Assembly: GCA_020349885.1 (NCBI GenBank)
Contig: CP070701.1
Span: 239,123-277,068, forward strand
Reading direction: 5' to 3'
DNA length: 37,946 bases
Source: Acidobacteriota bacterium
GTDB taxonomy: Bacteria; Acidobacteriota; G020349885
Every line of letters starts with the position of its first letter. Within the stretch, counting starts at the first letter, position 1. The notes under the pieces are model-generated. The model made no database searches. It was not told the origin of the DNA and saw nothing but the letters and a program-made list of their open reading frames with translations. Below, piece by piece: positions 17,986 through 27,828 of the stretch. Position numbers and translations under genes: made by a program.

Positions 17986-18654
17986 ATGAGCAGGAAATTG
18001 ACGAGAAACTTGTTTTTGGCGCTCGCCCTGGGAGTCGCCGTCGGCGCGTCCGCGCATGCCGCGGACAGGTACGACATCGATCCCGTCCACTCCTCGGTGG
18101 GCTTCAAGGTCCGCCATCTCGCAAGCTACACGACGGGCGTGTTCACCGACTTCAAGGGCACCATCATGCTCGACGAGGAAAACATCGTGAACTCCGGCGT
18201 CGAGGCGACCATCCAGGTGGCGAGCATTGACACGAACAACGAAGACCGCGACAACCACCTGCGCACCGAGGATTTTTTCCACGTCGAGAAGTATCCCGTC
18301 ATGAGGTTCGCCAGCAAGAAGGTGGCCAAGGGCGCGGACAACACCTTCAAGGTCACGGGCGAGCTGATGATGCATGGCGTCACGAAGGAAGTGACGCTGG
18401 ATGTCGAGTACTTCGGCAGGATGGCCCTCTCCCCCGACAAACCGCCGCGCGCGGGCTTCAGCGCCTCCGCGGAGCTCAACCGCAAGGATTACGGCATCGT
18501 CTGGAACAAGGTGCTCGACGCGGGGGGCCTCGTCCTGGGCGAGACCGTCAAGATTTCCATCGAGATCGAGGCCATCATGCAGGGGTGGAAGCCGCTTCCA
18601 GGGGGAGGGAAATCGCAAAAAGGAGGTATGGAGCACCCCATCCAGAGAAAATAA
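17986..18654 (+). CDS. YceI family periplasmic lipid-binding protein
   Basis: 222 residues with a clear Sec signal peptide (cleavage near ASAHA-ADRYDID). The mature domain is a lipocalin-like YceI barrel: DIDPVHSSVGFKVRHL opens it, FHVEKYPVMRFASKKV and LMMHGVTKEVTLDVEY are conserved strands, and RKDYGIVWN near the end is the family hallmark. YceI proteins bind isoprenoid-type lipids, and some are associated with quinones or stress. AAGGAGG gives a strong ribosome site. It lies 35 bases before the Ni-SOD gene, probably in one transcript, which suggests a role in periplasmic oxidative stress; that link is inference. Confidence 0.93.
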   Translation: MSRKLTRNLFLALALGVAVGASAHAADRYDIDPVHSSVGFKVRHLASYTTGVFTDFKGTIMLDEENIVNSGVEATIQVASIDTNNEDRDNHLRTEDFFHVEKYPVMRFASKKVAKGADNTFKVTGELMMHGVTKEVTLDVEYFGRMALSPDKPPRAGFSASAELNRKDYGIVWNKVLDAGGLVLGETVKISIEIEAIMQGWKPLPGGGKSQKGGMEHPIQRK

Positions 18655-18689
18655 ATTTACGAAACTGACACGACAAAGGAGGTTTGCAC

Positions 18690-19172
18690 ATGATAAATGA
18701 AATGTGGGGTTCCGGCATGGCATGGGTGGTGGTGCTCGTTCTCGGTGTGCTGGCCGCGCAGTTCGCGTGGGCGCACTGCAGCCTCCCGTGCGGCTACTAC
18801 GATTGGGACCACGAGTTCCACGACCTGGTCTACTCCGCCGAGACACTCGAAGCGCTTGCGAAGAAGGCCCAGGCGGAAAAAGGCGCTCTGTTCCAGGCGC
18901 GGGCGGCCTCCAAGAACGAGGAGTGGGGCACGCGCGCGCAGAGGCAAATTCGGCTCTTCGCGTTCGAGTACTTCGGCCCCGCGGAGCTTGCGGAAACCAA
19001 GGTGGGCGGGAAGAGCCTCTTGGAGGCCCTCCATGCCGCCGACAAGCAGGCCTACAAGTGCAAGCAGACGCTCAGCGTCGAAGAGGCACGGAAAATGATC
19101 GCTCTGGTCAAGGAAATCCAGAGCGCTTACGAGTCGGTCAAGGCCAAGCGGGACGAGGCGGAGAAGAAGTAG
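18690..19172 (+). CDS. sodN: Nickel superoxide dismutase with its own signal peptide
   Basis: Converts superoxide to oxygen and peroxide. The ATG at 18690 follows AAAGGAGG by seven bases and gives 160 residues. Residues 10-28 form a hydrophobic signal sequence ending AWA; cleavage there exposes HCSLPCGYYD, the nickel hook H-C-x-x-P-C-G-x-Y in which His1, Cys2 and Cys6 ligate nickel (here H29, C30, C34). The remaining roughly 120 residues are helical, as in Ni-SOD, but sequence is divergent, with an extra Cys (YKCKQ). Characterised SodN proteins carry a short propeptide cut by SodX; no sodX is seen here. Convergent with queA, 21 bases apart. Confidence 0.85.
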   Translation: MINEMWGSGMAWVVVLVLGVLAAQFAWAHCSLPCGYYDWDHEFHDLVYSAETLEALAKKAQAEKGALFQARAASKNEEWGTRAQRQIRLFAFEYFGPAELAETKVGGKSLLEALHAADKQAYKCKQTLSVEEARKMIALVKEIQSAYESVKAKRDEAEKK

Positions 19173-27342: not shown

Positions 27343-27828
27343 CTATCGGCTACCGCTCTGGCGCCGAGAATCGCTTGACGACTCCCTCGCGGTCGCCCTT
27401 CGCTCCGAGTAGGTGCTGCCGTAGCTCTCCCTCTCGCCCTCGGAAATGGAGGTTCCAATGGCTGTGAGAGGGTTGCCCGACCCGAGGCGCTCTTCGAGGT
27501 ACTCGGCCCGCTCCTCCGACTGCCGCCGCGCTTCCTCATCCGCCTTGTAACGCTCGATGTCTACAGGGGGTGGAGTTCCGGCGGGCCCGCGGGAGGGGCG
27601 TCGGGCTTTCCCCGCCGCCGAGCGGGGGGAGAAATTAATCTCGACGAGCTCGGTGGTTTTGTATTTCTCGAGAGCCTTGTTATCCACGACGGTGCTCTCG
27701 ACCCCCTGCTTGCGGAGCTCGGCGCGCCGGGCCTGTTCCTTTGCGGCCGCTTCGGCAAGTGAATCCGCCCCTTGCGCGCTTCCCGCTGCACCGCAGATTA
27801 TGACGATGGCGCACAGAACGCGTTTCAT
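27343..27828 (-). CDS. Small exported charged protein, unknown function
   Basis: 161 residues. A signal peptide (cleavage near AQGADSLAEA) is followed by a charged helix AAAKEQARRAELRKQG, then DNKALEKYKTTELVEI, a Ser/Arg/Pro linker and a second Glu/Arg-rich helix (about 95-115). The C-terminus is Ser/Arg-rich and low-complexity. The AAxKExxRRxxLR opening is common in small exported proteins of Acidobacteriota-like genomes, but no function is known to me. It is divergent from the GTPase gene with a promoter holding a perfect 12-bp palindrome. Confidence 0.7.
   Translation of the reverse strand: MKRVLCAIVIICGAAGSAQGADSLAEAAAKEQARRAELRKQGVESTVVDNKALEKYKTTELVEINFSPRSAAGKARRPSRGPAGTPPPVDIERYKADEEARRQSEERAEYLEERLGSGNPLTAIGTSISEGERESYGSTYSERRATARESSSDSRRQSGSR

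Follow-up and report, generated by a model that had tools for sequence, protein, structure and literature searches.

A divergent nickel superoxide dismutase with a predicted signal peptide, and a SodX-free class of its relatives

Introduction

Nickel superoxide dismutase (NiSOD) has been described as processed by a cognate peptidase, SodX (PMC3919588). The enzyme has been called cytoplasmic, and a missing sodX has been taken to mean a possible inability to use NiSOD (PMC8346466). On the other hand, a 2025 paper used the signal peptide of the NiSOD of the planctomycete Roseiconus lacunae (WP_230780104.1) as a search probe (PMC12537917), so that exported NiSODs are already implicit in the literature. 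We found no systematic account of a SodX-free class or of a split between classes in a search limited to papers available without subscription.

Here, we analyzed a stretch of 37,946 nucleotides (the window) from an Acidobacteriota genome (GCA_020349885.1, contig CP070701.1, positions 239,123 to 277,068), which encodes a SodN protein. Like the SodN of Streptomyces coelicolor (PDB 1t6i, 1t6u), the window protein has the nickel hook HCxxPCGxY, a predicted four-helix bundle, the invariant Arg39 (R43 in the window protein) and a tyrosine at the position of Y62. Unlike the SodX-matured S. coelicolor protein, it has no sodX and carries a predicted signal peptide instead of the short, charged propeptide, with Ser for D3, Trp at the R47 position, Gly at the K64 position and four extra residues after the hook.

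The window protein resembles the signal-peptide NiSODs (the Roseiconus protein, loci L029, L040, L061, L079, L086, L096 and others) in its hydrophobic leader, the small residue before His1, the lack of an adjacent SodX, the insertion after the hook and a KCKQT-like motif, the Roseiconus features being those given in PMC12537917 alone. In contrast to the window protein, those NiSODs have E/Q3, His at the R47 position and a basic n-region, and they form one group that excludes it. In lytic polysaccharide monooxygenases, CopC and DUF4198 proteins, signal peptidase frees an N-terminal histidine metal ligand (PMC12537917), as predicted here, but these proteins have unrelated folds, bind mostly copper and lack the cysteine-thiolate hook of NiSOD.

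Results

The window gene and its predicted product

The features of the locus were as follows.

17986 to 18654, + strand: yceI, encoding a predicted exported YceI-family protein, possible operon partner (PF04264, 171.3 bits)
18675 to 18682, + strand: ribosome binding site AAAGGAGG, with a 7-nt spacer to the ATG (sequence)
18690 to 19172, + strand: sodN, encoding a predicted nickel superoxide dismutase precursor of 160 amino acids plus stop (open reading frame, ribosome binding site, PF09055)
18690 to 18773, + strand: putative Sec-type signal peptide, residues 1 to 28, with no Lys or Arg (hydrophobicity 3.38 against class medians of 0.64 and 2.76)
18720 to 18758, + strand: hydrophobic core AWVVVLVLGVLAA, residues 11 to 23 (sequence, hydrophobicity scan)
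18765 to 18773, + strand: AWA, putative signal peptidase I recognition residues -3 to -1 (-3/-1 rule; relatives have a small residue directly before His1)
Between 18773 and 18774, + strand: predicted cut (-3/-1 rule)
18774 to 18800, + strand: nickel hook HCSLPCGYY, mature residues 1 to 9 (alignment with 87 relatives)
18774 to 19169, + strand: predicted mature Sod_Ni domain, 132 amino acids, four-helix bundle (AlphaFold2, Foldseek)

Sequence and structure model together confirmed the predicted product as a divergent nickel superoxide dismutase. It scored 52.7 bits against PF09055 Sod_Ni (cut-off 25) and 35.3 bits against the NCBIfam sodN equivalog TIGR02753, under the curated cut-off of 90. HCSLPCGYY satisfied the hook pattern H1-C2-x-x-P5-C6-G7-x-Y9. 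The third-position GC content (GC3) of the gene was 0.85, similar to that of neighboring genes. The single alternative in-frame start upstream, a TTG one base past AAAGGAGG, added no basic residue to the leader.

An AlphaFold2 model of the mature protein, a prediction built on an alignment of relatives, formed a four-helix bundle with a mean pLDDT of 94.8. Foldseek returned 16 PDB matches at E <= 0.001, a NiSOD in every case, with target-normalised TM-scores to solved NiSODs of 0.87 to 0.92; apo NiSOD chains superposed on the model at 1.2 A.

Among 87 aligned relatives, hook residues H1, C2, P5, C6 and G7 were invariant and Y9 was present in all but one. The window protein retained all of these, as well as R43, E49, Y66, F67 and K97. 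An earlier sequence-only reading of the window had placed the hook at the mature N-terminus, where we also predict it. The protein departed from its relatives at S3 (nearly all others have D, E or Q), Y8, W11, N48, W51, G52 and G68. The structural matches included 3g50, a solved D3A NiSOD, so that the NiSOD fold tolerates the loss of Asp3. As a separate observation, a signal-class SodN (L024, minus strand near 1890) has Phe in place of hook Tyr9 (HCQIPCGIF).

The differing second-sphere residues (S3 and W51) could also point to something other than a dismutase: an exported protein whose N-terminal histidine serves another metal, or a metal carrier; other exported His1 proteins bind copper (PMC12537917). 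We regard this as unlikely, since the NiSOD hook retains Cys2, Cys6, Pro5, Gly7 and Tyr9 and NiSOD alone matches the fold.

Two classes of SodN

SodN loci were collected from the phylum of the window, from a scan for the pattern AHCxxPCG and from samples of two further phyla. The 153 loci analyzed fell into 85 of a propeptide class, with a short charged leader and the hook HCD (HCG in one), and 68 of a signal class, with a hydrophobic leader and the hook HC[E/Q][I/V/L]PCG[I/V]. Going by record titles, the signal class occurred in Gemmatimonadota (L029), Latescibacterota (L040), Desulforhopalus and Desulfuromonadales (L061, L086), Deltaproteobacteria (L079) and Kiritimatiellales (L096); the genome set behind one of the phylum samples places L029 and L040 in a single phylum.

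A SodX profile, trained on the neighbors of propeptide-class genes, was then applied to flanking open reading frames. SodX was adjacent to sodN at 82 of the 85 propeptide-class loci, and one of the three exceptions lay at a contig end. At signal-class loci no adjacent SodX was found (0/71, or 0/68 after three repeats of the same genomes were dropped). In searches of 76 whole genomes carrying a signal-class SodN, nine of them uninspected at the leader, TIGR02754 never exceeded its cut-off.

Both classes were present in the phylum of the window: sodX lay beside sodN in 9 of 10 propeptide-class genomes and was found in none of the signal-class genomes. The only propeptide-class gene found in the sample of the Desulforhopalus phylum (genome G514) had a SodX-like open reading frame 136 bp downstream (54.3 bits). 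With both classes present in one phylum, the pairing of leader type and SodX goes with the gene and not with the organism.

In the tree, the signal class made up one side of a single branch (support 99/96; 92 in a second tree). The association of leader type with SodX therefore amounts to about one evolutionary change, and its Fisher value of 2e-41 is descriptive only.

Other features of these loci were also recorded. Signal-class sodN adjoins groES/groEL at L040 and 15 related loci (L120-L126, L128-L131, L133, L136-L138); at L125, groES is on the same strand as sodN, about 170 bp downstream. Genome G350 carries two different signal-class sodN copies (L025 and L028). The phylum of genome G396 had sodN in an unusually high 39 of 64 genomes, with the signal class in all 30 inspected. 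At a propeptide-class locus from Chloroflexota (L046), no SodX lay adjacent to sodN although the flanks were long, and nothing elsewhere in its genome was clearly a SodX (best matches about 26 bits).

Position of the window protein

The window protein joined the branch between the two classes on an end branch of 3.0 to 3.4, and this length makes its place unsure. Its best identity to any relative was 34 to 36%. No closer relative was found in one genome each of 84,980 species (pattern scan), among roughly 850 genomes from three phyla or in plasmids.

With the signal class the protein shares four residues inserted behind the hook, as well as the KCKQT motif, which some propeptide-class proteins also have; like the propeptide class, it does not have the four-residue deletion that precedes the YF motif. 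Its leader goes with the signal class (hydrophobic, a small residue before His1, sodX absent), but its place outside the signal-class branch and its S3 and W11, against E/Q3 and D11, do not. We infer that the window gene would be an outlying member of a widespread, exported, SodX-free form of NiSOD. With departures at the nearly fixed positions S3, N48, W51 and G52 and no relative above 36% identity, its function could have been lost or changed.

The leader peptide

Residues 1 to 28 of the window protein are MINEMWGSGMAWVVVLVLGVLAAQFAWA, immediately followed by HCSLPCGYY. A short c-region, QFAWA, follows the hydrophobic core, and His29 stands directly past AWA. The peak hydrophobicity of the leader (10-residue Kyte-Doolittle mean) was 3.38, above that of all 85 propeptide-type leaders (median 0.64, maximum 2.34); the median of the 68 signal-type leaders was 2.76. 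Under the -3/-1 rule, A28|H29 was the best AxA site past the core. As a chance level, small residues at -3 and -1 with a preceding hydrophobic stretch occurred at 76 of 16,010 unrelated histidines (0.5%).

The leader contains no Lys or Arg, has a net charge of -1 and lacks a basic n-region, whereas 62 of the 68 signal-class leaders have at least one Lys or Arg within the first 12 residues; the remaining six have an apparent start at an upstream GTG and would then also carry a Lys. In this respect the window leader truly differs from a typical Sec signal, which lowers confidence in efficient export. The earlier assignment of residues 1 to 28 as a Sec signal thus stood for the hydrophobic core and the AWA before His, but the predicted signal is atypical in its missing basic residues.

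Two other readings of the leader were rejected. Tat export was ruled out since a leader without Arg has no twin-arginine motif. Alanine at -1 was dropped as a diagnostic of signal peptidase because it also occurs in propeptide-type SodN and was selected by the AHCxxPCG scan, which makes -1 residue frequencies not comparable between the classes.

The missing basic n-region, together with the great branch length and a number of unusual residues, would also fit a signal anchor that is cleaved slowly or not at all, leaving a membrane-tethered helical bundle without NiSOD function. That appears improbable: an AxA lies exactly before His1, and all of the nickel-hook residues are kept, a conservation that would be pointless if the leader stayed uncleaved.

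SodX and peptidases in the host genome

The host genome is a single contig of 2.40 Mb, 95% complete. A sodX gene elsewhere in it had been set beforehand as one of the findings that would speak against maturation by signal peptidase. Searches with TIGR02754 and PF10502 did not find one: the best TIGR02754 match was a 34-position fragment of LepB (21.8 bits, cut-off 63.25), and the SodX profile found no SodX in the open reading frames flanking the window sodN. PF10502 (Peptidase_S26) had a single match in the genome, LepB, a protein of 248 residues with an N-terminal membrane segment and SxM, KR and GDNRDNSNDSR motifs. Since LepB was the only Peptidase_S26 match and no SodX was recognized, nothing recognized other than LepB would cut the leader. 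A sodX in the 5% of the genome that is missing may be an alternative, as may an unrelated protease.

SodX also cuts after alanine, so that Ala at -1 by itself does not distinguish LepB cleavage from a cytosolic NiSOD whose unusually hydrophobic propeptide is cut by an unrecognized SodX-like protease. We give the cytosolic explanation very little weight, because LepB is the only S26 peptidase found and the leader is more hydrophobic than every propeptide-type leader. From the covariation of leader type and sodX across the 153 loci we infer, as had been proposed, that signal peptidase matures the window SodN.

Gene neighborhood and other superoxide-removing enzymes

The product of yceI also bears a predicted signal peptide, and the gene ends 35 bp upstream of sodN, with no terminator-like site on the + strand. 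A shared yceI-sodN operon, suggested earlier as likely, is plausible. We rejected a conserved functional partnership with YceI: its gene lies beside sodN in the window alone and is not conserved at the other loci, although for most other signal-class loci the flank was about 1.5 kb.

Searches of the 95% complete host genome gave no Fe/Mn-SOD, Cu/Zn-SOD or superoxide reductase, which leaves the window SodN as the only superoxide-removing enzyme recognized by these families. Other window genes encode an LpxA-type acyltransferase, a FabZ-like dehydratase, TonB, ExbB, ExbD and CcmF, which indicated an outer membrane and a periplasm. Elsewhere in the window (27343 to 27828, - strand) is a possible exported protein beginning MKRVLCAIVIICGAAGSAQGA, with no Pfam match.

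Discussion

We consider it highly probable that the window gene encodes an exported NiSOD that has no need of SodX. The precursor would cross via Sec, as its leader has no Arg and hence no twin-arginine motif, and signal peptidase I (LepB) would remove residues 1 to 28, so that the mature chain would begin with a free His1. Nickel would be taken up by the hook His1-Cys2-Pro5-Cys6-Tyr9 outside the cytoplasm, after translocation, because Sec substrates cross unfolded. The assembled enzyme would then dismutate superoxide in the periplasm, where it would meet both external superoxide and that of the respiratory chain. All of these steps, from export and the precise cleavage point to nickel loading and activity, are predictions. 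Against such a route, Cys2 and Cys6 could form a disulfide in the periplasm ahead of nickel arrival.

For the evolution of NiSOD as a whole, we see an even chance that a single switch separated the cytoplasmic, SodX-matured form from the exported form matured by signal peptidase, with the window protein as a third deep lineage near the switch and the only recognizable SOD of its host located outside the cytoplasm.

The NCBIfam cut-off of 90 missed six signal-class proteins tested with TIGR02753 (L029, L040, L061, L079, L086, L096; 29 to 43 bits, against 134 to 208 bits for four propeptide-class relatives), and naming by this model would overlook the exported class. A periplasmic NiSOD also poses a problem, since nickel would have to be loaded in an oxidizing compartment while Cys2 and Cys6 stay reduced. 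The SodX-free class suggests a simple laboratory route to correctly processed NiSOD. A large SodX-free class, in which the export signal would double as the maturation propeptide, alters the inference that has been drawn from the absence of sodX.
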